From: Prorocentrum cordatum
Taxonomy: Eukaryota; Sar; Dinophyceae; Prorocentrales; Prorocentraceae
Assembly (NCBI GenBank): GCA_963575745.1
Contig: CAUYUJ010015743.1
Location: 1 to 64,000, forward strand
Length of the DNA: 64,000 nucleotides
Direction: 5' to 3'
The translations under genes were made by a program, and so were the position numbers. Below are positions 26,371-63,244 of this stretch, in pieces (position 1 is the first letter of the stretch; the number at the start of each line of letters is the position of its first letter). Below the pieces are notes generated by a model that searched no databases, was not told where the DNA came from, and worked only from the letters and a program-made list of their open reading frames with translations.

Positions 26371-27201
26371 ATGGATGAAACGGATAAACGTATGGATGAA
26401 CTCGAGAAAACATTAAAAACGGTTCAGAATGGGAGTGCGGTATCTACCTTCAGTGCTGGGAGTGGCCCCGCTGATGGGGGCGGCGGAGGTGGCGGGGGCA
26501 GGAACCAGTTCTCTCCAACATACATCGAGGTCAAGGGGTGGGTCACGGATTGGGCCAATCATCAGAATCGTTGTGCTCAAATGTTGACTGCCGACGACGC
26601 CATGATACTCATTGACAATATATCCAAAGTTATTGCCTCAGATGACCAGGCCTTTCTTAGCAAGGAGGGGACAGAACGTATCAATGCAGGTCGATACATG
26701 TTCGGCAGTTGTCGCATCAAGTTTCTTCCATTCACGGATCGAGAGGTGTTATATCGCTTTCAGAAGCTCCTCAGGATCATTGTGACTCCCACTGCACAGC
26801 GTGCCCCCTTGTCAGAAGGGGCGACTATTCCAGAACCCAGCGTGCTCATCGCGGGCATGACGCAGGTCATCGACCCGACTCAGCTACGTTTCAATATCGA
26901 ATCAGCTCCTTGGAAGCGCGACCATGTTCGTGCAGTTGGTCGCTTCTGCGGGGCCTGGCGCAACGTGTGCCAGCGTCACGGATTGGTCCTGGAGGTGCGG
27001 GGAGAGGTCGGCCCCCCGAAATCGAACATGTGGGTCAAGGCTCAGGGCGACCGACTCCTCCGCCCGATCTGTATTGCTGAATTCGGAGCAGCCCAGACGT
27101 GGACTATCCTTGAGACGCAGTGGGGCCAGCTTCAGGTGAAGTTCCCAAGTCTGACGATCACAGCGACGGACTTCGAGGTCGAGGTCAATCGCAAGGTGTG
27201 A
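26371..27201 (+). CDS. LINE-1 ORF1, C-terminal part
   Basis: Same frame as the preceding segment, 12 bp after the TAA. It begins with heptad-like coiled-coil sequence (MDETDKRMDELEKTLKTV) and a Gly-rich linker (eight consecutive Gly). A conserved C-terminal region follows: QFSPTYIEVKGWVTDW, GRYMFGS, a segment REVLYRFQKLLRI, and APWKRDHVRAVGRFCGAWR..EVRGEVGPPKS. LINE-3 matches all of these and LINE-2 is only distantly similar. The coiled coil plus a possible RRM-like fold resembles the architecture of L1-type ORF1 proteins; the fold is inference. It ends at TGA 27199-27201, with ORF2 continuing in the same frame. Confidence 0.8.
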   Translation: MDETDKRMDELEKTLKTVQNGSAVSTFSAGSGPADGGGGGGGGRNQFSPTYIEVKGWVTDWANHQNRCAQMLTADDAMILIDNISKVIASDDQAFLSKEGTERINAGRYMFGSCRIKFLPFTDREVLYRFQKLLRIIVTPTAQRAPLSEGATIPEPSVLIAGMTQVIDPTQLRFNIESAPWKRDHVRAVGRFCGAWRNVCQRHGLVLEVRGEVGPPKSNMWVKAQGDRLLRPICIAEFGAAQTWTILETQWGQLQVKFPSLTITATDFEVEVNRKV

Positions 27202-27231: not shown

Positions 27232-30200
27232 TTGGGGTGCTGGAACCTCGACAAGGCTGGTGAGAACAACTTCAGAGGCGTGGAGGCGCTCAACCATATG
27301 CGTGCATGTGGCGGCCTGTTCGCGCTTCAGGAGGCCCAGAATATAATTCATGCAGATGCCGCCCGTCTCGGATGGCAGATCAAGCACAGTGCCTGCAGGA
27401 AGGCGGGGCTCATCTTCGATCGAAGTTGGGCCTCGACGTCCAGGGAATTCATTACTACCTTTTCTAGATTCGCCATTGGTGTGTTCGGTACTTCCATCTC
27501 GCCCTTGGTTGTCTGCTCTCTTTATCTGCCCGATTCTCATCGAGAAGATTGCGAAGCGGAGTATGAACTCACGCTTGAGCGTGTCTCTGCCACTTTCACA
27601 AGCCTCAGACACAGGTATAGCCAGGCCAGCTTTGTTTGTTTGCTTGACGGGAATGTTGAGCTACCGCCACTATGTGAGTTAGAATGTAATGGGGAATTGT
27701 ATCTTGCTACGGGAGAGGGCTTGAGGAAGGAGGTCAGGACCTTGGCATGTGGTACGGAGGAGAGGGAGCGTATCAACAGGAGGAGGAGGATGATGGAGAT
27801 GCTCCTGGGGTTCATGCAGACCCACATGTTTAAGGCGGCCAATACCTTTTCTGCAGATAGGCGTCCTACTTGGGAAGCGTGGGGCGAACAACGTAGCTTC
27901 GGACGAATTCAGAAAGTGCTAGATTACATCTTGGTGCCCAGCCGCTGGGAGTGCTCTGAGTGTGAAGTTTCTTGGTGTTACGCAAGAGGAGGAAGGAGGA
28001 ATAGGAGTCGATTAAGTGATCATGCACTTCTAACTGGGCTGTTTGCATCGCCTGGCCGTGTGATTGTGCGACGTGACCACAGGGAGCGGGCAGAGCCGCC
28101 GGCGCCCTCTTTGGTAGGATATCGATGCGTGACATGGGGTGATGAGTTCAATGCCAGGAGGAGGGTGGATCGGAGCTTGGGAGATGTTGTGTTTCGTGGG
28201 ATTCCCGCACGTTCTCTCGAGATGGAGCCAGCCAGCTTACCTTGCACGCTCATCCAGTCTTTTGTTGCTGCTCCTGACGTGGACTTTACCACGACGCAGA
28301 GCGGCAAGCAGAGGCCACCTGTGAGGCCGATCGAGCTCACTCGTCTTTTGGAGAGATGGCGGGAACTACCGCCAGGCACGACTCCAGAGGAAAAGAAACG
28401 TCTCAGGAGTGAGCTTAATCTACATCGCCGTCGGTATCGCAGAGAGGTTGCAGCCTGGAAGTGTCCCCTCAATCGTCGAAAGATTCGTCATTATATTAAA
28501 CACTTGGTGGTGGAGGGCCAGGAGACGGAGGACAGGGAGGTCTGGAGGAAGGAGCTCGACAGTTTCTGCAGAAATAAGCTTTCATCGGATCAGATGCGGG
28601 AGGAGAACGCTAGTATGATGGAGGAGATCAAGGGGAAGGCGAGGGAGGAGCTCGGTAGCAGCACGTATTCGACCATCACTATGGCATTACTCGGACGTGG
28701 GCGGGCGCGTCTCCGTACACAACGAGCCACAGGGCCAGATCGAGTACCGTGTGAGGTGTTAAAGTGTCTCCCTTGGACGGTATTGCGCAATATCCGACGC
28801 TTGTTCAACGATATACTACACATGCGCACACCGTATCCCTCCTCATGGCGTGATATCCTCATCTCCTTTATGCCCAAGCTTCCTGGCATCACGGATCTTA
28901 GGGACGGTAGGCTTCTATGTATGCAGAACGCTATTGCACGATGGTACAGCACATGTATCGTTATCTTGGTGGAACAACATGTCGAGCGAAACGGTCTCTT
29001 TCGCCCTCTCGGTCTTTACGGCTTCCAATCTAACCGCACCACGAACGAGATCACGGCGAGCTTGAAACACATCGGACAGCATGCCTCTACATGGGGGAAG
29101 GGGGAAACAGCACATCTGGCCAATGCAGATATCCTACAAGCCTTCGACCATTGCACGGTAGCCAATGTTAGACGGGGTTTACAGCACGCACATGTACCTT
29201 ATCATCTTCAATATGCTTTTCTCGATCCACTATGTGACAGTGTGGGGACGGTTTGCCATGAAAGTATCGAGGTGGAGAGTGTGAGATGGGATAGATGTAT
29301 TAGAACGGGCGGTGCCGAGGGACCCCTAGGGTTCAACCTTATTATTGCTGCGATGTGGCAGGAAACCTTCCGACAGTGGGATACACAGAACATAGGTTAT
29401 CAAGTGTGTTTTAAAACTGGGGATTCCATGGAGTCTGGCAAATCGTCCTACACGTCGGTCGTCAATCACTTCGTATGGGCAGACAATTGCTACATCTTGG
29501 CACGAAGCAGGGAAGAATTGGCACGCATGATTCACGACCTTACGGTTAGACTCCATGATTTCGGCATGCGCTGGAAACCCTCTAGCTTGCTCTACATGGT
29601 CTTCGGTGCCGACGCCGCGAGAGATGCCGAGGGGCTGATCCTTTCTTCAGCCGACTTACTTGTACCCTTCCAGAATGATGTTATGCGGTTCAGACGTGTT
29701 ACTGAGATGACGGTTCTAGGCGTCCAGTTGTTCTCTGATTATAAGTATTCCTCGCACCTCGATGTGGACTCGAGGATTGAGGCGGCTCGTCGGACATTTT
29801 ACTCCCAGGCAGGATATTTTCGGAACACAAGCACGTCGTTGAAGGAAAAGTTCCAACGATACCAGCAGAAGGTCCAGAGTATTGCCCTTTTCGGTGCGGG
29901 TGGCTGCACGGCCGACAAGGACAGCCTCCACGCACTGCACGCGTTTGAGGGCAGGTGTCTATGTTTCATGCTTCGATGCCGCCGAGAACCAGACGAATCC
30001 CATGCTACTTGGAACGAGAGAAGATACAGCGATGCCAGATTGAGGTTCGCAGAAGCTGGGTACCACAGTTTGGTCCAGAGATTTCTCCGAGCTCAGTGGC
30101 TGCTGGCAAAGGATGTCTCGGCGTATGCGCAGAGGTTGTATCAGGGAGAGGACATGAGGGAGGAGCATAGAGCATGGAGTGATGCACGCATGTGTTTGAT

Positions 30201-31194
30201 TGCCTTTGGTATAAGTTATGATACGCTGCGCACACTTGAGGGAGAAGCCCTTCGGGCATTCGGAAAGTGGAGGGAATGTGGAGTTATGAAACGCTGGAGG
30301 TCAGGAGGGCAAGCGATCGGACAACGCTGTTGGCAGACACCCTTTCATGAGTTCTTCGGCCCACGGTGGTGGGAAGTATTCCAAGGCGGTCATCATGCCT
30401 TCATGCAGTTTGCAACTCATCATTGTACACCCTCTATGCTTAGACTTTTCCAGAAGAAATGCAAAGGTATCCATGATGGTAACGCCCCCGTTTTTCTGGC
30501 CGAACGTAATGAGGAGTATGTTGCTACAGAGGATGATTCTCCCGCTGCACGCCTGCGATTCAGTAAGAGATTGGCAATCCACAACATGAAGAGCACGTGT
30601 TGGGACGTGACTTCAGGAGGCGTGCCGTTGGAGATCACTGGAGATTCTCTTCTTATCATTTGCTGGCTCTGCGGCCTCTGGAAGGCAGATAATCACTTAT
30701 ACCAGAGACGTGTTGATAATATGATTAATGCTTTGGAAGGAATGTGTTGTATGTATGGTGTGAGACCTGCTGAAGCAGGACGCGATCTTTTCAAACATGA
30801 GTTTCGGGAATGGAATGAGAAAGCCGACCTCCTTACCCACCAGGCCCGCGAGGGCCACCAATACACGAACGAACAGTACCAGTTGCAGCCATACGAACAG
30901 TCATGCTATGAACCTTGCCTCATCAAAGCGGGCTTTGATGGTGGTGTGTGCAGCCTGGGAGCAGGAAGTGGAGCTTGGATTCAGATTGGACTGCGTTCTC
31001 GATTCTCCCATCTCTCGCCTACCTCTTCCTTCAGTGAGTCCCCACAGATTATCTTCAAAGACGTTTACGTTTGCTCCTTCGCTCTCCAAGACGGGTCCAC
31101 AGTGACGGATACGGAACTCTCCGCTGCAGAGTGCGTCATCGCAGCACTCCCACGGGTTTTGCAGGCCTATTTCAGCGATAAGTTGTGTGATTGA
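27232..31194 (+). CDS. LINE-1 ORF2: APE endonuclease, reverse transcriptase, permuted RNase H
   Basis: An uninterrupted frame of 1,320 codons counted from TTG 27232; it is open from 27202, just after the ORF1 TGA. Endonuclease (aa 1-270): CWNLD (Asn5), Gln33-Glu34, Asp139-x-Asn141, Asp231 in LDYILVP, and SDH 262-264. Pre-RT region IKHLVVEGQETEDREVW (about 422-438). Reverse transcriptase (about 485-800): motif A ADILQAFDH (Asp633), motif B RTGGAEGPLGFNL (Glu696 where Gln is usual), motif C WADN (749-752) instead of YADD. C-terminal RNase H motifs come in permuted order: GDSLL (Asp1138), EWNEKAD (Asp1199), FDGG (Asp1236), DTELSAAE (Glu1295). The first Met (codon 23) lies after the catalytic Asn5, so translation from AUG would lose endonuclease motif I. 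Function: target-primed reverse transcription. Confidence 0.93.
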   Translation: MGCWNLDKAGENNFRGVEALNHMRACGGLFALQEAQNIIHADAARLGWQIKHSACRKAGLIFDRSWASTSREFITTFSRFAIGVFGTSISPLVVCSLYLPDSHREDCEAEYELTLERVSATFTSLRHRYSQASFVCLLDGNVELPPLCELECNGELYLATGEGLRKEVRTLACGTEERERINRRRRMMEMLLGFMQTHMFKAANTFSADRRPTWEAWGEQRSFGRIQKVLDYILVPSRWECSECEVSWCYARGGRRNRSRLSDHALLTGLFASPGRVIVRRDHRERAEPPAPSLVGYRCVTWGDEFNARRRVDRSLGDVVFRGIPARSLEMEPASLPCTLIQSFVAAPDVDFTTTQSGKQRPPVRPIELTRLLERWRELPPGTTPEEKKRLRSELNLHRRRYRREVAAWKCPLNRRKIRHYIKHLVVEGQETEDREVWRKELDSFCRNKLSSDQMREENASMMEEIKGKAREELGSSTYSTITMALLGRGRARLRTQRATGPDRVPCEVLKCLPWTVLRNIRRLFNDILHMRTPYPSSWRDILISFMPKLPGITDLRDGRLLCMQNAIARWYSTCIVILVEQHVERNGLFRPLGLYGFQSNRTTNEITASLKHIGQHASTWGKGETAHLANADILQAFDHCTVANVRRGLQHAHVPYHLQYAFLDPLCDSVGTVCHESIEVESVRWDRCIRTGGAEGPLGFNLIIAAMWQETFRQWDTQNIGYQVCFKTGDSMESGKSSYTSVVNHFVWADNCYILARSREELARMIHDLTVRLHDFGMRWKPSSLLYMVFGADAARDAEGLILSSADLLVPFQNDVMRFRRVTEMTVLGVQLFSDYKYSSHLDVDSRIEAARRTFYSQAGYFRNTSTSLKEKFQRYQQKVQSIALFGAGGCTADKDSLHALHAFEGRCLCFMLRCRREPDESHATWNERRYSDARLRFAEAGYHSLVQRFLRAQWLLAKDVSAYAQRLYQGEDMREEHRAWSDARMCLIAFGISYDTLRTLEGEALRAFGKWRECGVMKRWRSGGQAIGQRCWQTPFHEFFGPRWWEVFQGGHHAFMQFATHHCTPSMLRLFQKKCKGIHDGNAPVFLAERNEEYVATEDDSPAARLRFSKRLAIHNMKSTCWDVTSGGVPLEITGDSLLIICWLCGLWKADNHLYQRRVDNMINALEGMCCMYGVRPAEAGRDLFKHEFREWNEKADLLTHQAREGHQYTNEQYQLQPYEQSCYEPCLIKAGFDGGVCSLGAGSGAWIQIGLRSRFSHLSPTSSFSESPQIIFKDVYVCSFALQDGSTVTDTELSAAECVIAALPRVLQAYFSDKLCD

Positions 31195-41410: not shown

Positions 41411-41725
41411 TGGTCGACCCGACCAGAAAGGACAAAGTGGTGACTTTGGGTCGGCTTTGCTCAGATTTGAAAGATATTTGACCATTTATTTTGAGTAAGC
41501 AGATTTTTACGCCGAGCATTGGCATATAAATTTTGTTCCCTGAGCAGCTCAGCTCTCCCGAGCCAGTTTTAGTATTAGTTGACTTCCCGGAACCGACTTC
41601 ATCTTCATTCCGAAAATTTTAATTTGACGAATTTCCAGAAAAACTCCCAGAAGCTCTCCCTTTCGATCCTGAGCTTTATTACGGGTGCAAGGAGCTTTAC
41701 GAGGTTCCCGGCGGTGACCAGGTTG
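41411..41725 (+). repeat. J module with hairpin split by LINE-2
   Basis: The J module starts tggtcgacccgaccagaaaggacaaagtgg and runs to GAGCTTTACGAGGTTCCCGG. The left stem arm CCGGCGGTGA is at 41708-41717, and the loop is cut after GACCAGGTTG (41716-41725), the left copy of the LINE-2 target-site duplication. Confidence 0.8.
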
Positions 41726-45149: not shown

Positions 45150-47621
45150 CTAGAACACCGCGTTCGGCAGGCTGCACCGCCAGGTTGCAACTTATATGGC
45201 TTTATCGCGGGTCACAAATGTTATGAGGTCACGGCCCCCCTCAAACGTCTTGCTCAACACGGCGTTGTGTGGGGGAAGGAGGAGAGTCTTTACCTTGCAA
45301 GTGCTGATATTGAAAAGGCGTTTGATAATTTCACGGTTAGATGTGCAGCAGAGGCGCTTTTATTCCATCATGTCCATCCTGCCCTTGTGTATGCTGTCTT
45401 TGAGAGTGATGCTTGTAACACGGCAGAGATCAGCTGCCAACAGTGTTCTACGACCATCTCGTGGGATACTTGCATTCGTACAGGTTCCTGGGAGGCGCCT
45501 TTGCTATTTGTTGCCCAGACCCTTCGTATGCTTGCACCAGTGACGGCAGGTTGGAGACAGTCTGGATACGGCGTCAGGCTCACTGATGAGGCATCCAATC
45601 TCTTGGTCAACCACTGGTTTTGGGCAGACAATATTTTGCTGGCGGCAGCTTCCAGGCGAGAATTGACCCATATGCTCGAGGACTTGACTGGGGTCCTCCA
45701 CCGCTTCGGTTTCAACTGGAAAGCATCTTCGATGGAGTTCTTGGCTTGTGGCGTCCAAGGTACATTGCAGGATATCCGCCTGCCTGTGCCGGGGCTCCTG
45801 CCTGCTGAGGTGGGTAGGAAGCGTTCTCGTGGGGCTTCTCAGAGCGCCGCAGGTCCTTCGGAGGAGATGATAGTGAGGCAGGTGGAGAGGATGGAGGTTC
45901 TTGGCACGCTATTGGACGTACGATTTGAGGATCATGAAGACATTAAGCACCGACTGGAGAAGGCACGACGGGTCTTTATTTGTGAGATTTCTTTTTACTC
46001 GTCGCCCGTGGTTCCGCTTCGTTGTAAGTTTCAGCGTTATGATAGCAGGGTCAGAAGTTGCTTTCTGTACGGTTTGGAGGGTGCGACTTTGGATTCGGGT
46101 AGTCTCCAACAGATACATGCAGCTGAAGGCAACTTCTTGTCCACCATGAGACGTCTCAAAAAGAAGATCACGGAGTCCTGGGGAGAGTACTGGGGCAGGA
46201 GGATTAAAGGTGGTCGTCGCTTATTGAAGTGGGCCCGTAAGCCTTCGATGGTCCAGCTCGCTCTTCATCGCCAGTGGCTCTTCGCCAAACATGTTGTGAG
46301 CACGATCCATGAGGAGCATAGTCGGGTGGATGAGGACGCACTCAGTCAGGGCATTCTTTATCATGAGCCACGAGATCCTGATATTCTTGGTGGTTCGCAG
46401 CGTTCCTTGGAGTTATCGGTTCCCTCGCCTACCCCGAATGCCAGACAGCGTAACAGTTCGTGTAGGAGAAAGGCACAGAGCGCATCTGCCTTGGAGAATA
46501 GGTCAGTTCGCAGACGTATATCGGAGAACACGGCACATGAGCATCATGATTCACAACATGTACATGAGCCTGTTCGTAAGCGGGTACGCCATACCTATGC
46601 ACGGGAGAAGGAAGGAGGATTGCCCACTGCCAGTATGAAGAGCGCCTTGACGATGATGCACGCGTCGGGGGAGTGGACTGAGCAGCGTGACGTACATGTT
46701 AGAGCTCTCCCTGGGGGCCGACGGTTTACTAGAGCTTGTCGTCATCGAGTCTTGACGGGACTTAGGCCTTGGTTCGAGATCTTCGAGCACACGCACGGGG
46801 TTCATTGGGATCGCACGATGGTCTGGAATGAAACTGGCTGGCGTTCCTTCCTGGTGGGTACCCTGGCCGCCCTGGACTTGGATGATCTTCTCGATTTCTG
46901 CCTTCTTCGGGATCCTTTCACGGGTGAGTTCAAGCAGGAGGAGGAGGGGGAGGAGAAGTCAGAGGAGCAGCAACGACGGGAAAATGAACGGGTGGCGAAA
47001 CGACTGGCCGCGATAAATGATGATGAAACCACTTGGCGTGGGGAAGGGGGTGGATATGGCTTGGAGCTCCGTGGGGATAGCCAGTGTGTTGTGCGCTGGC
47101 TTAATGGACGATATCGCTGTCACAATGAAGTATATCGCCGCACGATCAAGGGTATGCAGAACCGCCTTCACAGAATGAGTGAGGACCATCATCTTGTCAC
47201 GGCAGAAGTGGGAAGGGATATGTGGAAATGGGTGTATAGGGAGGGCAACGATGAGGCGGACCATGAGACACATCTTGCACGTGAGGGTAAAGTAACTTCT
47301 GATGTTCGTTGGAATCATAACACTCTTTATCATATTAGATCGGGTCATTATATTGTTCGTGCACTTAGAGGAGCTTTCGATGGTGGGCGGTGTGAACGTG
47401 GCACTTCGTGTGGCTGGGTTATGGATGCTTATCTTGTTCCCCCTCTTCCTCCTCACCAGCTTCCCCCTGGACTTGTGCAGGGCGGATGGCACCCTGGAGT
47501 TGGCCGCAGAGGTTTCATGATCCCTAGCCACTGCACGATCACGCAGGCTGAGTTGGCAGCTGCACATTCGCTTCTCAATGGCATTGCCGAGATGTGTATA
47601 CACGTACAGCTTGGTCGGTGA
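45150..47621 (+). pseudogene. LINE-2 ORF2, 3' part: reverse transcriptase core, permuted RNase H
   Basis: After a roughly 110-nt segment in a second frame (about 45,040-45,148), the reading resumes in a third frame with LYGFIAGHKCYEVTAPLKRLAQ. RT motif A is ADIEKAFDNF, motif B RTGSWEAPLLF, motif C WADN (45621-45632). A thumb/linker with a basic stretch follows. The RNase H motifs are permuted: GDSQCVVRWL (Asp codon 47076-47078), REGNDEADHE (47259-47261), FDGGRCERGTSCGWV (47379-47381), TQAELAAAH (Glu codon 47550-47552). GNDEAD and FDGG..CGW are close to canonical RNase HI motifs. It ends TGA at 47621. Broken by two frameshifts, so this copy is presumably dead. Confidence 0.88.
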
Positions 47622-47853: not shown

Positions 47854-48221
47854 GACCAGGTTGACGGTTCACCGCCGGCGCCAGTTGGCGCACCCGGCCA
47901 GAAAGGACAAAGTGGTGACTTTTGGTCGGTTTTGCGAAAATTTGACAGATATTTAACCATTTATTTTGAGAAAGCAGATTCTTGCGAGTCGCATTGGCAT
48001 ATGAACTCCTCTCTGACAGCAGCTCAGCTCTCGCGATGCATTTTTTCATTAGTTGACTTCCAGGAACTGAGCGAATATGAATATCGAAAAAAAACGAAAA
48101 TGACGATTTTCGAAAAATCTTTATTTTATAACTCTACTTCGATCCTCAGCAATCTCACCAGTGTAAGGAGCTCTACGAGCTCCCCGGCGCTGATCAGGTT
48201 CACGGTTCACGGCCGGCGCCA
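47854..48221 (+). repeat. Right half of the LINE-2 target hairpin, then a J module
   Basis: Target copy GACCAGGTTG at 47854-47863, right stem arm TCACCGCCGG at 47869-47878, then a J module (gcgcacccggccagaaaggac..) ending in a decayed hairpin at about 48184-48216 (CCGGCGCTGA / TCACGGCCGG). Confidence 0.75.
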
Positions 48222-56411: not shown

Positions 56412-56443
56412 GGCTCAAGAACGTCTCGGCTCAAGAACGTCTC
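56412..56443 (+). other. Tandem spliced-leader relicts at the LINE-3 5' end
   Basis: Two exact 16-bp copies of GGCTCAAGAACGTCTC. The first 8 bases equal the 3' end of the dinoflagellate spliced leader. The GGC is shared with the target (CCCCCGGC), so the junction lies in a 3-bp microhomology, as in LINE-1. Because AACGTCTC is also duplicated, a plain tandem duplication of one relict is an alternative to two trans-splicing events. Confidence 0.75.
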
Positions 56444-56594
56444 TGCCTAGGTAACCTCCAGACGTTCTAGCGAGCCTTCGCCTCGGGGTGTGAGCCTGGC
56501 TAGCCTGGGTTCCCTCGAGGTTTTTATCTGCTTACACTGCATCTCGTGTATTGTGCGCTGAATTCTTCTTCGTGGTATTGAGATACTTTCTGGT

Positions 56595-57330
56595 GTGCTG
56601 CACTGCTGTCTATTGTCTGTCTGCATATATTATCTCTTATTGAACGAGTGGAAGTTTCTTGTGTGCTGGATCGTTGTTGACACAACGTCGTACGACAGTC
56701 CTGAGGCTCAGCAGGCCTTGAGGAGAGAGATCGGACTCGAGCATTGGGGTGAAAGTACTGAGGAGTGGTTTCGTCGTCAAAAGAATCTGGACATACCCAC
56801 AGAGGATTACCAGGACGATAGGGTCAACTTCGATTACCTTGAGGAATACCAACCGTGGGATCAGAAAGACTTGCAGGCACTGGAGGCAGCATCTAACAAA
56901 CGTCAACGTGAGGACGATAAGAGCTGGCTGGATAAATACGGATTGAACGGTCACATTCTTGAGAATATGACTCATGTTGCTGCAGCGGCGGATGCCGCGA
57001 TGACGGGAGACGGGGAGATTCGATCTAAACGTGCACGTGGCCCAGAGATTGAGGAGGAGAGGAAAGTGATGTTAGCGCAGGAGAAGGATCCATTCAAACA
57101 GATGATGATGAAGCATGTTTGGAAAACGGAGGATGCCCATGAGGATCTCCTCCATGTTGTTCAATCGACGAAGACTGACATCAAAAGAGTTGATGACGCA
57201 CTCAAGTTGCAGACGGAGCGCATGGACAAATCAGATGCACGGACAGATATTCTGGAGAAACAGGTTAAGCAAATTTTGGCTGGATCTCCTGCAGCTTCGG
57301 TTTCGACTAGTGTGGGCCCTGGTGGCTCCT
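56595..57330 (+). pseudogene. LINE-3 ORF1, N-terminal and coiled-coil part
   Basis: No ATG in any frame from 56412 to 56967. Similarity to LINE-1 starts at TTSYDSPEAQ (56,682) and includes HWGESTEEWFRRQKNLD, the basic KRARGP cluster and a coiled coil STKTDIKRVDDALKLQTERMDKSDARTD.. (written here in part). The upstream hydrophobic stretch (56,595-56,680) has no counterpart in LINE-1 and may be untranslated. The frame is lost at about 57,325-57,345 in the Gly-rich linker. Confidence 0.75.
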
Positions 57331-57555
57331 GGTGGAGGTGTAGGTTCGGTCCCTCACGTGCAACAAGGGCGACCGAGCCAGTTCACACCAACTTATCTCG
57401 AACTTAAAGGGTGGGTTACAGATTGGTCGAATCAAGTAAATCGGGGAAATCAAATGATACCCTGGGCGGATGCGTCACAGCTAATATCGAATATGATTGG
57501 AACACTTCAGGGGGAGGAAAGGAATGCTTACGACAAAGATAAACTGAACGATTAA
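57331..57555 (+). pseudogene. LINE-3 ORF1, middle segment in a shifted frame
   Basis: GGGVGSVPHVQQGRPSQF, then TPTYLELKGWVTDWSNQVN, corresponding to LINE-1 QFSPTYIEVKGWVTDWANHQN. It is in a different frame from the segments on either side. The frame ends in TAA 57553-57555 where LINE-1 continues RINAGRYMFG, so a second indel lies at about 57,550. Confidence 0.8.
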
Positions 57556-57569
57556 ACGGAGGAAGATAT

Positions 57570-58067
57570 ATGTACGGAAGTGTGAAGGTCGGTTTCAAAG
57601 AAGGGACACCACGGGACACTCTTTGGATAATAAAGAAATGGATGGATATGGTCTGTAAGGAACCAGCCGATCGTATTGCCCCGCCCCCAGGTTATACATA
57701 TCCAAATGCCGATGTTCTCATTCAAGATATGGACACGCCGATCGATCCCAGAAAGATTCGTACGTTAGTGGAGTGTGCACCCTGGAAGCGTGATCATGTG
57801 AAAGCGGTTGCTCGTTTCTGTGGGACTTGGCGAGGTATGACGTCGGCTCATGTCCAAATCGAGATCCGTGGGGAGGTGGGGCCACCGAGGAGTCAAATTT
57901 GGACTCAAGCTGTTCAGAATCTCCGACCCGTCTGTTTTGCGACGTATACGAACACCACAGGGGCTTGGGTTCTTCATGCTGATGCATGGGCTCGTATTGT
58001 TGCTATGTATCCTGCGCTGACAGTCCCCATGAATGATGTACTTCAGGAAGTGAATCGTAGGCAGTGA
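57570..58067 (+). pseudogene. LINE-3 ORF1, C-terminal part
   Basis: Back in the original frame: GRYMYGSVKVGF, TPRDTLWIIKKWMDMV, CAPWKRDHVKAVARFCGTWR and EIRGEVGPPRSQ match LINE-1 closely. It ends TGA 58065-58067. ORF2 follows in the same frame with TGA CGT context. Confidence 0.85.
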
Positions 58068-58070
58068 CGT

Positions 58071-60908
58071 TTGCGGCGCCTCGTCCGAGGCATACGTTTG
58101 GCGAGCTGGAACCTGAACAAAGCAGGTGGGGCTCATTTTAAATGTGCTGAGATTCTCCATCATATGAGGGCATGTGGTGGGCTCTTTGCATGTCAGGAAA
58201 CTCAATACCTTGTGCATGGTGAATTTGAACGCTTGGGGTGGCGCATCAAAACTAGTTCGTGTTGCAAGGCAGCTCTCATCTTCGACAGATCTTGGGCGGC
58301 TGCCGTCCGCATGTTCTTTACTTGTTTCACGAGGTTCGTTATCGGCGTCTTTGGGTCAGAGAAGTCACCACTTATTATTGTGTCAGCGTATTTGCCAGAC
58401 CCTCATGTGGAGGATTGTGTAGAGATAGCTGCGGAGGTGTATGAGCAGATCAGTCGTGCTGCTCGTAATGTTCTCCGCACCAAGTTTCCTCAGGCCAGCT
58501 TTTGTGTTCTGCTCGATGCAAATGTGGAGATTCCGCCTGGATGCAAGTTTACGTATAATGGGGAGGAGTATGAGGCTACTGGAGAGGAGGGTACTCGTAC
58601 GGACAGAAGGTGGGAGAGAGGAGGAGACGGTACACAGCAGATTGAGAGGAGGAGTCGGAGGAGGAGGTTGAAGGAGCTGCTCTTAGAGTTCATGGAATCA
58701 CATGGACTGAAGGCCGCCAACACTTTCAGTACTAGGAGGCATACCTGGGAGTCGTGGGGGGAGAACAAGTTTCTGACTTCGAAGAGGGTCCTGGATTACC
58801 TACTGGTCCCTCATCGTTGGGAGTTCTCGGATCTGGAGGTGAAGTGGTGTTTCAAGAGGGGTGGGAAGAAGCAGTTCAGTAGATTATCCGATCACGCAAT
58901 CATCACGGCGAGTTTCACTGACCCTGGGAATGTGATTGTTCGTCGCCCTGACCCCCAGCCTGGTCAGAAGTCTAGGCCGTCCCTGGTCGGATACAAGTGT
59001 TCGACTTGGGCTGATGAGCATCAGGCTCGACAGCATGTGGATTTGAATCTAGGCGGTGCTGCCTTCGCTCGTTCAAGGTGTCCGTCTGTGACCTGTCCAC
59101 AGTGTCTGCAGAGTACTATGCTGGAGGCGTACTTATCACCGACGGTGGACTACTCCACCACGGGTGCGAGAAGACCGAGAGAGCCGTCCAGGCCGGTGCA
59201 GCTCACAAGAGCCGAGGAGGAGGTTAATATGTGTCCGAAGGAGGATGTGGAGAGGTTGAGGAGGTTAAAGAATGAGGCCAATCGTCTACGCAGAAGTTAT
59301 CCACGTGATATGATTATGTGCAGATGCCCCCCAACAAAGCGTAAGGTCAGATATACTATCAAACATTTAGTGGTGGATGGGAGGGAGACGGAGGACCGTG
59401 AGGAGTGGAAGGAGGAGCTCGACAAGTTCGTTCGTTTCAAGGTGTCGTCCGAGGAGGTACGCAATTCCACCAACAGTATGATGGAGGAGATCAGGATGAG
59501 GGCTGTACATGAAGTACGATCCACATCAGTTGTGGGAATTAGTATGGCGCTGCTTCTCAGAGCACGTGCTCGGCTAAAGACCCAGAGGGCTACTGGGCCA
59601 GACGGGATGCCGTGCGAGATTCTAAGGAGCTTGCCGTGGTGTGCTCTCAGAGCGATCCAGAAGTTGTTCGATAAAGTCATCAAGCTCACGATTCCGTATC
59701 CTCAGTCGTGGCGTGAGATTCTCGTCTCTTTTATGCCAAAAACTCCAGGGATTACTAAGTTAAAAGACGGGCGTTTGCTGTGTATGCAGAATGCTGTTTC
59801 GAGATGGTTCAGTTCCTGTATTGTTCTCCTGCTTGAGGGCCATATTGAAAGAAACGGAGTGTTTCGTCATATTGGGTTGTATGGTTTCCAGGAACATCGT
59901 CGTACACACGAAATCACGGCTAGCATCAAACACATAGGTCAACATGCTGCACAATGGGGAAAAGGGGAAACGGCACACTTGGCGAACGCTGATGTCCTCC
60001 AGGCGTTCGATCACTGCACGGTGGCCAATGTCAGGCGCGGGTTGGGTCATGCGAGTGTGCCCCTATACCTACAGTATGCTCTACTTAACCCCTTGTGCGA
60101 ATGTGTAGGCACTGTCTATTATGATGGGATTGAGGTGGTGGAGGTAAGGTGGGACAAATGTATTCGAACGGGGGGGCCTGAGGGCCCGTCGGCTTTCAAC
60201 CTTATTGTTGCTGCTATGTGGGGCTCCACGATTCGAGAATGGGACGTACTAGGACTAGGTTATCGTATTGAGTTTGCGACTGGCTCGGCTAGCTGTGTTT
60301 CGATTATTAATCACTTCCTCTGGGCGGACAGCTGTTATGTACTGGCTCGGAATCGGGAGGAACTCACGCGCATGTTATACGGTCTAACTACACAGTTACA
60401 TGACTATGGCATGAAATGGAAAGAGTCCAGTCTACTGTACATGGTGTTTGGGGTTGATCCTCCGCGAGATGCGGAAGGGGAAATACTACGCACTGCTGAT
60501 CTTGTTCTCTCGATGGGGTCGGAGGAGTCGGGGGTGTATCGATTTAGAAGGGCGACGGAGATGGAGGTGCTTGGGGCTCATATTTGTTCTGAACTACATG
60601 TGAATGAGCATCCAGATTTGGACGCTAGTATTGACTCTGCTCGCAGGGCTTTCTGGGGGCAGGCGACCTTCTTCCGCTCCACGGCCATCCCGTTGAAAGA
60701 TAAATATGAGAGGTATGCACAGAGGGTTCAGAGTATTGTACTTTACGCGGCGGAAGGATGTACGGTCGACTCTAGTTCATTGAGTGCCCTTCATATCTTT
60801 GAGGGTAAGTGCCTGGCTGTAATGTCTCGTTGTATACGGAGGGAAGGGGAAAGTTATCAGGAATGGAATACGAGGAGGTATGAACGTGCGAGACAACAAA
60901 AATCATGA
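58071..60908 (+). pseudogene. LINE-3 ORF2, 5' part: endonuclease and reverse transcriptase
   Basis: Open from 58068. Endonuclease: ASWNLNKAG (motif I Asn before any Met), ACQETQ, LLDANVEIPP, LDYLLVP, LSDHAII. Pre-RT IKHLVVDGRETEDREEW. RT motif A ADVLQAFDH, motif B RTGGPEGPSAFNL (Glu for Gln), motif C WADS (60321-60332) instead of WADN or YADD. The frame is lost near 60,890-60,908 after WNTRRYERAR, where LINE-1 has WNERRYSDAR. Confidence 0.88.
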
Positions 60909-61395
60909 TGCACACTATGCGGGTATTGTACAGAAGTTTCTCAGAGTGCACTGGGTGTGGGCAATCGGCATTCATGATTTTGCCCATCGCATGATCACAG
61001 AGCGGGAGGCGCTGGAGGCAAACTCGACAAGAGCTTGGAGAGATGCTCGTTTCTCGTGCCTGGCGTTTGGCCGACTGTGGGATAGAATGAGGACAGATTC
61101 AAGCGAGGCTCTCAGATGTTGGGGGAATTGGAAGGAGGCCAGCTCAATGAAACGACATCGGGGGGGACAGGAGAGTGTAGGACTTCGTCCGTGGTACTAT
61201 TCATTGGAATCGTTTTATGGTTTATCCTGGTGGGAGTTCTTTGCTGGAAGTTTTGAACATTTCATGGATTTCGCTGCAAATGTTTGTTCTAGTACTATGT
61301 TGAAGTATTTCCCAAAGAAGTGCAAAGGTTTGGCGTCCTCAGGGGTGCCTGTGTTCTTGAACTTGGATGAGGATGGAGGGGTTCATATATTGGTC
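60904..61395 (+). pseudogene. LINE-3 ORF2, linker segment in a shifted frame
   Basis: DAHYAGIVQKFLRVHWVWA and SWWEFFAGSFEHFMDFA match the region of LINE-1 between RT and RNase H (YHSLVQRFLRAQWLLA; RWWEVFQGGHHAFMQFA). A second frameshift at about 61,370-61,400 returns to the first frame. Confidence 0.8.
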
Positions 61396-62033
61396 AGGAT
61401 CGGGAGGATACACCAGCATATAGAGATCGTCTCAGCAAACGTATTGCGTTACATAACATGCGTTGTACACAGTGGGACCTCGATGCGGATGGGATACCAC
61501 TGGATATCCAGGGGGACTCACTGCTTGTGATTAACTGGCTCTGCGGGAAACGGAAAGTATTAGCTCAGGTTTATCAGAAAAGGGTGGATACTCTGATTAA
61601 TAAATTGGAAGAGATGCAGGAAACATACTCGGTGAGGCCTCCAGAGGCTGGCCGTGACTTCTTCTCTCATTCTTTTCGGGAATGGAACCAGAGAGCTGAC
61701 TTACTGACCCATCAGGCCCGTCAGGGCCACGTGTACGCCGATTTCGTTTACCTCAGCGATTTTGAATCTCAGTGTTATACTCCTTGCCTTATCAAAGCCG
61801 GCTTTGATGGGGGCGTTTGTAACCGCGGAAGTGCCTGTGGTGTGTGGATACAGATTGGTCTGCGAAACAAATATATCTTCTCGCGGACCGACATCATTTT
61901 CAAGGATGTGTATCTTGCGGCTTGGTGTCTGCCACCAAGCGCCACTGTTACAGATACGGAACTATCAGCGGCGGAGTGCATATGCGATGTGCTCCCACAG
62001 GTAGTGCAGACCTTCTTTGATCTTTCGCAGTGA
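61396..62033 (+). pseudogene. LINE-3 ORF2, permuted RNase H domain
   Basis: RLSKRIALHNMRC is followed by the four RNase H motifs in permuted order: QGDSLLVINWL (Asp 61515-61517), REWNQRADLL (Asp 61698-61700), AGFDGGVCNRGSACGVW (Asp 61806-61808), TDTELSAAEC (Glu 61959-61961). The order and spacing match LINE-1 and LINE-2. Ends TGA at 62033. Confidence 0.88.
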
Positions 62034-62291
62034 TAAGTCACACATTGTTTCTTCTCTTTCTGTGTTCTTGTTTTTTTCCAACAGCTTCGCTGTTCACTGA
62101 CTCATTCGTTTGTCTTTGTGTGCTTTGCGTTTGATTGTGTCATTGCGGCATGTGATTCTCTTTATTCCTTCAGCTTCGCTGTGTGGTATAAGAGCTGACT
62201 GCTTGCGTGATAAATAAGAGGCTCTGTTTCGCCTGATACTTTGTTGGACCTGGCCTTAGTGGCCAAGACGGTCCCAGCAAAGACGCAAAAA
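62034..62291 (+). other. LINE-3 3' UTR with mini-hairpins and terminal stem-loop
   Basis: CAGCTTCGCTG occurs twice (62092-62102, 62171-62181), matching the CAGCTNCGCTG motifs of LINE-2. TATAAGAGCTG is shared with LINE-1. A terminal stem-loop (62246-62274) pairs GGACC..GGCC with GGCC..GGTCC. The A5 tract follows 12 nt later. Confidence 0.7.
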
Positions 62292-63244
62292 GAAAGGTTG
62301 ACGGTTTACCGCCGGCGCCCAGTTTGCCGACCCGACCAAAAGAGACAATGTGACAACTTTTGGGTGGTTTTGCAATTGTTTCAAAGATATTTGACAATCT
62401 GTTGAACCCAGAGGTCTGAACTCGGTCTGCTAGCCGAGCTAGGTCCGCAAACCTACTCGTATTATTCGAGTCATCTTGACAGACGCTCTCGGTTTTCTGT
62501 ACTTAACTCGAGCTACAGGACAGCTACAGAGCTGATGCGTACAGAATCTGATTCAGAATCACCAGTGGCCATGTCCATTGAATCCAGAGCTCTGAACTCG
62601 GTCTGCTGCCCGATCTAGAATCGCGAAACTATTAGTATTGTTCGAGTCATCTTGAGAGATGCTGTCGGTTCTCTGCACTTAACTAGGGATGTAGGGGGGC
62701 TGCAGGGCTAGTAATCACTGGAATCGATTCGGAGACATCAGGCGCGTCCACCTTTCGAATCCAGAGCTCCGAACTCTGTCTGCTGCCCGAACTAGGTCTG
62801 CGAAACTATTCGTATTGTTCGAGTCATCCTGAGAGGTGCTGTCGGTTTTCTGCACTTAACTCGGGCTGTAGGGGGGGGGCTGCAGGGCTGGTAATCACAG
62901 GAATCGAATCAGAGATATCAGACGCGTCCGCCTGTCGCATGCAGATGTCTGAACTCGGTCTGATACTTGAGCTAGGTTTGCCAAACTATTCGTATGTTTC
63001 GAGTCATCTTGAGAGGTGCTGTCGATTTACGCACGTAGCTCGGGCTGTAGGAGAGCTACAGAGCTCGTGCAGAAGACAATCCAGAAGCATCGGGGGCGTT
63101 CGGCTGTTGCATCCGAGAGGTCTGAAATTGCTTGGGCTGAAAAACTATTTTTCGGTGTAATTTTTTCCGACATTATATGTTGTCAGGAAGCTCTACGAGT
63201 CCCCCGGCGGTAACAAAGGTTGACGGTTTACCGCCGGCGCCCAG
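62292..63244 (+). repeat. Right half of the LINE-3 target hairpin, J fragment, satellite unit S22
   Basis: The right stem arm TTACCGCCGG is at 62306-62315. A J fragment (tttgccgacccgaccaaaagagac..) breaks off at about 62,397 into the middle of a satellite monomer (ctgttgaacccagaggtctg), a chimeric junction. The unit ends with GGAAGCTCTACGAGT and hairpin 63204-63237. Confidence 0.8.

Follow-up and report, generated by a model that had tools for sequence, protein, structure and literature searches.

Evidence for a circularly permuted, Archaea-like RNase H domain at the C-terminus of LINE ORF2 proteins in a Prorocentrum cordatum locus

The stretch of genomic DNA analysed here, referred to as the window, comprises 64,000 nucleotides of Prorocentrum cordatum (assembly GCA_963575745.1, contig CAUYUJ010015743.1, positions 1 to 64,000, forward strand), and contains three long interspersed nuclear elements, LINE-1, LINE-2 and LINE-3, within a locus rich in tandem repeats (Table 1). 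LINE-1 has two open reading frames (ORFs), and the ORFs of LINE-2 and LINE-3 resemble these but are interrupted. A Pfam scan of the LINE-1 ORF2 matched the reverse transcriptase (RT) alone (RVT_1, residues 595–784, E 4.1e-6), with 27.1 bits against a Pfam cut-off of 29.6; RVT_1 was present in all four of the long ORF2s scanned (E up to 0.1, best E 5.4e-8). Pfam scans gave no match to an APE-type endonuclease at the ORF2 N-terminus; the motifs ALQE, LDGNVE and LSDHALL in ORF2 are ones that we take to resemble such an enzyme. The subject of this work is the domain that follows the RT, at the C-terminus of ORF2, which is very probably a naturally circularly permuted Archaea-like RNase H, cut between helix A and strand 4.

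The original prediction, made from the sequence of the window, held that the four acidic motifs of RNase HI occur in swapped order in all three elements, i.e., that the second half of the domain precedes the first, and this observation is confirmed. In the LINE-1 frame 27232–31194 the residue numbers given for the motifs are exact, with D1138 (GDSLLIICWL) and D1199 (EWNEKAD) preceding D1236 (FDGG) and E1295 (TDTELSAAE), and a six-frame motif scan places the same succession on the + strand of LINE-2 (47073, 47244, 47376 and 47541) and of LINE-3 (61512, 61683, 61803 and 61950). The last-helix motif GNxxAD is found as GNDEAD in LINE-2, while LINE-1 reads WNEKAD. Since the domain region of LINE-1 is only 32% identical to that of LINE-2 and 57% identical to that of LINE-3, the swapped order is shared by two diverged families, as had been claimed; between LINE-1 and LINE-3 the nonsynonymous divergence (dN) is 0.38 and the synonymous divergence (dS) 2.8, the latter close to saturation. 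The extent proposed for the domain, 30640–31194, holds as regards its position at the C-terminus of ORF2, whereas its start lies further upstream, a predicted helix beginning near 30541 and strand 4 near 30622. Because strand 4 and helix E precede strand 1 and helix A, the domain is classified as a permuted derivative and not as a canonical RNase HI.

Table 1 Features of the LINE elements in the window
Feature	Coordinates	Strand	Remarks
LINE-1 ORF2, RT and predicted C-terminal permuted RNase H	27232–31194	+	1320 aa; TTG start assigned mechanically
LINE-1 first ORF	26371–27201		276 aa; upstream of ORF2
Predicted helix before strand 4	30541–30588	+	Model residues 18–33; predicted structure
Strand 4	30622–30642	+	Predicted structure; followed by D1138 (30643–30645), aligned to GDS of archaeal-type RNase HI
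RNase H second half, after strand 4 to helix E	30643–30849	+	R1192 at 30805–30807, D1199 at 30826–30828; profile alignments and model
Linker, old C-terminus (helix E) to old N-terminus (strand 1)	30850–30906	+	Model; short elements; best rotation points at profile columns 88–112
RNase H first half, strands 1–3 and helix A	30907–31191	+	D1236 at 30937–30939, E1295 at 31114–31116; ends ORF2
LINE-2 predicted permuted RNase H	46935–47621	+	C-terminus of ORF 45267–47621
LINE-3 predicted permuted RNase H	61371–62018	+	Readable 3' piece of damaged ORF2
LINE 3' junctions	31409, 47859, 62296		
LINE 5' junctions	about 25661, 41725, 56414		

The strongest evidence for the permutation comes from profile comparisons. 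A profile of 25 sequences in native order found archaeal-type RNases HI as its best matches in the PDB, and only its N-terminal part was aligned, to the C-terminal half of RNase HI (profile columns 40–111 with residues 73–132 of the 3aly chain, E 0.0057). In a rotation scan with hhalign, an alignment of 31 permuted domains was opened at every eighth column and compared with 57 canonical archaeal-type RNases HI, the set that remained after 80 loci had been filtered for motifs in canonical order. The native order aligned over 62 columns (68–129 of 146) with a score of 81.4, and re-ordering, the comparison proposed in the original prediction, lengthened the alignment to 120 columns (4–129), with scores up to 92.0 and an E-value of 9.6e-15, when the cut was placed at columns 88–112; all other cut points gave shorter alignments and lower scores. 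The rotated alignment pairs FDGG with the strand-1 FDG, TELSA with the helix-A AEY, GDS with GDS and REWNEKAD with REMNKEAD, and the four active-site carboxylates, D-E-D-D, align one to one with those of archaeal-type RNase HI; D1138 presumably corresponds to D70 of E. coli RNase HI.

When the columns of the C-terminal half are shuffled, most of the gain from rotation is lost, none of 80 shuffles reaching the observed score (best 87.9, over 80 columns), and for the C-terminal half alone the observed score is 22.1, with 149 of 150 column shuffles at or below 16.3. One shuffle of this half scored 138.6 over 11 columns and was taken as a numerical artefact. The reverse control behaves as the mirror image, in that bacterial RNase HI aligns over 130 columns natively and over 60 when cut at the same place, before residue 63. 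Against bacterial RNase HI the 31 rows gain little from rotation (from 30.3 to at most 35.2), and a first scan, in which 18 rows were compared with 63 RNases H of bacterial and phage origin, gave no gain; the archaeal-type profile thus fits better than the bacterial-type one (best scores 92 versus 35).

Searches with general-purpose models were less informative. RVT_3 was matched in 8 of the 25 rows (best E 0.0036), the best RNase H match in a detailed table of 10 proteins missed the Pfam cut-off (15.5 versus 21.6 bits), and a precomputed PF13456 label exists for the distant relatives P0045 and P0051 and for P0054. Pfam did not discriminate native from manually rotated domains (RVT_3 in 4 of 10 and 5 of 10, respectively, second half only), and found RNase H in none of six C-terminal halves on their own. 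Profile searches of the PDB placed the second half alone on RNases H in either order, and the single ORF2 sequence found no match there. By homology and by prediction, the two parts of the domain are supported as counterparts of the second and the first half of RNase HI, with strong homology for the second and weaker homology for the first.

The structure prediction that had been proposed for the domain was carried out with AlphaFold2, which models the LINE-1 sequence as one confident domain (pLDDT 89.8, pTM 0.84) with the RNase H elements in rotated order, each of the four acids lying in or adjoining its expected secondary-structure element. In structure comparison with VIA, the two predicted halves match, at modest Z, the parts of RNase H structures to which they should correspond, the structures being the same for both; RNase H entries occupy 4 of the 50 listed rows for the full model, and RNase H or RT-RNase H entries 21 of the 50 listed for the C-terminal half, interspersed with unrelated folds whose Z is as high or higher. 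Neither Foldseek nor VIA returned a full-length match for the full-length model, the best Foldseek match being PelC (E 1.5e-3, TM 0.26), and RNase H was absent among the best 50 Foldseek matches listed; this is not counted as evidence, since sequential aligners are expected to miss a permuted chain. Native and rotated profiles, the canonical control, the predicted structure and the half-by-half matches thus agree, which supports the proposal that the domain was cut between helix A and strand 4 and its old termini joined.

The arrangement extends well beyond the window. Searching with a profile built from the three window copies, in which only the 8000 candidates that shared most words with it were scored, yielded 22 proteins, and a second profile found 61, some overlapping with the earlier matches, giving 73 distinct homologs, mostly from metagenome sources, plus two eukaryotes; the recovery of 73 homologs places the arrangement beyond chance. 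LINE-1 ORF2 residues 560–1320 as query retrieved three long ORF2 homologs, of which P0023 (1184 aa) is 92% identical, P0024 (1286 aa) 49% and P0025 (1303 aa) 39%, and all three carry an RT followed by the same C-terminal domain. P0026 is from the dinoflagellate P. cordatum itself and is 86.6% identical to LINE-3 over 202 residues; along the damaged ORF2 of this element (56415–62295) it aligns in three pieces and two frames at 77–87% identity, the 3' piece reading openly despite the damage. P0007, P0043, P0044, P0046 and P0053, listed in EukProt as Pyramimonas sp., a prasinophyte, represent several LINE families, some partial, and may reflect either contamination or spread beyond dinoflagellates. 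In a distant branch (P0045, P0048, P0049, P0051, P0060, P0066 and relatives) the helix-A motif has EC (TQAEC, TKAEC, TQTEC, IQDEC) in place of the EL found elsewhere, and the swapped order is kept. Matches of this type also occur on contigs of up to 28 kb, and in P0051 a LINE-thumb-like sequence was noted by eye upstream of the domain. A scan of viral_contigs with the permuted profile gave 47 stretches that matched the pattern, none of which was confirmed.

Across 76 sequences, i.e., the 73 homologs and the three window copies, 31 have all four motifs, invariably with strand 4 first, then helix E, strand 1 and finally helix A; the others have fewer motifs in a consistent order, and P0064 has none. 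A tree was built from 91 sequences, rotated or canonical (31 permuted, 35 of the 57 archaeal-type and 25 of the 63 bacterial and phage enzymes, the canonical rows drawn at random), and in it the 31 permuted rows form one clade with 100/100 support, recovered in 100% of 200 bootstrap trees. The clade sits on a long branch (1.83), and the midpoint-rooted tree does not place it inside the Archaea-like RNases H (aRNH).

Several observations qualify this reading and have to be set beside the evidence. The uniformity of motif order is partly built in, because the regular expressions were made for the permuted family, the scan imposed an order (it took the last strand-1 match, and accepted strand 4 only ahead of helix E and helix A only beyond strand 1), and the homologs came from searches with permuted queries; an independent flag for a strand-1-like motif upstream of helix E fired once, in P0003, for an FDGG well upstream of the domain. 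Foldseek returned nothing for the C-terminal half at E ≤0.001, and E. coli RNase HI (1wsj) appears in 2 of its 50 listed rows with weak E-values of 0.56–0.67. The limited sensitivity of the upstream test described below also lowers confidence slightly, and D1199 is replaced by N or V in 2 of 31 aligned rows, a count made on rows picked for having all four motifs.

The last of these points bears on an alternative that we regard as improbable, in which the domain has the permuted RNase H fold but has lost nuclease activity and plays only a structural or hybrid-binding role, comparable to that of the degenerate tether RNase H in retroviruses and Tat elements. Catalytic activity of the domain is a prediction from sequence and model, and there are other retroelements whose RNase H domains lack conserved catalytic residues (PMC5348765; this and the other papers are cited from the portions of their texts available to us). 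An inactive module is, however, at odds with the conservation seen in 15 rows selected by length (15 of 16 so chosen, P0015 being omitted as a near-copy of P0017), where D1138, D1236, E1295 and R1192 are invariant and D1199 nearly so, although the other 14 rows are only 30–68% identical to LINE-1. R1192 aligns with the Arg of the archaeal-type PRExN motif, and the predicted active site, D-E-D-R-D with Arg in place of the His between strand 5 and helix E, is Archaea-like.

Less probable still, and in our view a slim chance, is that the halves remain from a pair of canonical RNase H domains once arranged in tandem and function only in trans, through domain swapping between one ORF2 molecule and another. 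Circular permutations usually arise by tandem duplication, and the predicted helix ahead of strand 4 could speculatively be a remnant of helix A. Yet AlphaFold2 folds a single chain into one domain with confidence, and LINE-1 ORF2 residues 1–560, 560–860 and 860–1130 score at noise (10–16) against both RNase H sets. On this ground no canonical RNase H, whose presence elsewhere in ORF2 the original prediction had named as contrary to a permutation, was detected in the LINE-1 ORF2; the test used four rows, and the same alignment recovers the second half (residues 1130–1320, 47.9 against the archaeal-type set) but could miss a lone first half. Finally, chance resemblance of motifs, or an assembly or frameshift artefact, for which the satellite-rich window and the damaged LINE-3 might be invoked, is already contradicted by the homologs, with three copies from two families and 73 relatives elsewhere, including three long ORF2s, and by the E-value reached in rotated order.

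We therefore return to a permuted fold in a single chain, and consider it likely to be natural and catalytically competent, fixed once in the ancestor of a deep dinoflagellate LINE radiation and kept since. The chain would run through strand 4, helices B to D, strand 5 and helix E, and via the linker through strands 1 to 3 and helix A, with its new start at strand 4 tethered to the RT side and the old helix A forming the protein C-terminus. The two halves would close into one RNase H fold and bring D1236, E1295, D1138 and D1199 together with R1192. Once target-primed reverse transcription has produced an RNA/cDNA hybrid, two-metal catalysis might cut its RNA strand, the removal of which would allow synthesis of the second DNA strand. 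A plausible origin is tandem duplication of the domain followed by loss of the outer halves, and the simplest reading is one permutation event before the sampled LINE families diverged.

Compared with canonical archaeal and bacterial RNases HI such as LC11 RNase H1 (3u3g) and Sulfolobus tokodaii RNase HI (3aly), the halves of the LINE domain match in sequence, and in predicted structure at modest Z, but those enzymes are not permuted, whereas the LINE domain is joined through a linker of about 20 residues and opened between helix A and strand 4. In I-group LINEs the RNase H is C-terminal, after the RT, and in canonical order. The members of this group that carry it (Ingi, I, Nimb, Loa, R1, Tad1, Loner and Outcast; PMC4640811) share with LINE-1 an RNase H in the RT-bearing ORF. 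LINEs with aRNH are described from plants (Ta11 L1) and oomycetes (L1 and Utopia), with a D-E-D-R-D active site that has Arg for His (PMC5348765, PMC4640811), and a Repbase screen located aRNH elements only in higher plants and oomycetes (PMC5348765). These and the dinoflagellate elements alike have an RNase H with an active-site Arg in the LINE polyprotein; however, the aRNH catalytic order is D-E-D-R/H-D (PMC5348765, PMC4640811), as opposed to D-R-D followed by D-E in the LINE-1 type, and the RNase H of oomycete Utopia precedes the RT (PMC4640811) and does not follow it as in the LINE-1 type. SymbioLINE-Dnmt of Symbiodinium is, like the elements of the window, a dinoflagellate LINE with two ORFs, but is defined by a DNA methyltransferase in ORF1, and the available passages describe no RNase H for its ORF2 (PMC5890265).

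Term searches did not find the word dinoflagellate in the texts of PMC5348765 and PMC4640811, nor the stem 'permut' in these two, in a classification of the RNase H-like superfamily (PMC3985635) or in a review of RNase H (PMC5603734). PMC5408684, PMC7824862 and PMC4686048 mention both permutation and RNase H, in their available parts on other matters. In the literature searched, from portions of texts mostly outside subscription journals and preprints, we found no earlier description of a permuted RNase H in a retrotransposon, nor of RNase H connectivity cut between helix A and strand 4 in any natural protein.

The surroundings of the elements offer some further observations. The tandem repeats extend, in pieces, over 10433–63051 of the window and consist of units of about 177 bp together with 215-bp and 483-bp units, among which the LINEs sit. 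All three LINEs share one orientation and one insertion point, a single base within a short hairpin-like motif, GGCGGTAACCAA^GGTTGACGGTTTACCGCC, which recurs at irregular spacing, and this suggests that they are target-specific. On the + strand of the window GGTTGACGGTT occurs 32 times, in 29 cases away from LINE 3' ends, and on the - strand it is absent. LINE-2 is flanked by a 10-bp target duplication, GACCAGGTTG (41716–41725 and 47854–47863), and at LINE-1 and LINE-3 a few bases of the target have apparently been lost instead. Rfam and tRNA scans of the window returned nothing at their thresholds, and a pattern search for DinoSL found no occurrence in it.

RNase H is a textbook fold for studies of folding, reverse transcription and transposition. 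If the permutation is real, a natural permutant would show that the connectivity of this fold can be re-cut with the active-site residues kept, and would offer engineers a different topology that is ready for use. It would also account for the failure of the Pfam RNase H models to reach their cut-offs on the LINE domains scanned in detail. For the LINEs themselves, it would add a new lineage to the puzzle of their repeated capture of Archaea-like RNases H, and a new way of linking the RNase H module to the RT, with an effect on second-strand synthesis that could be tested directly.
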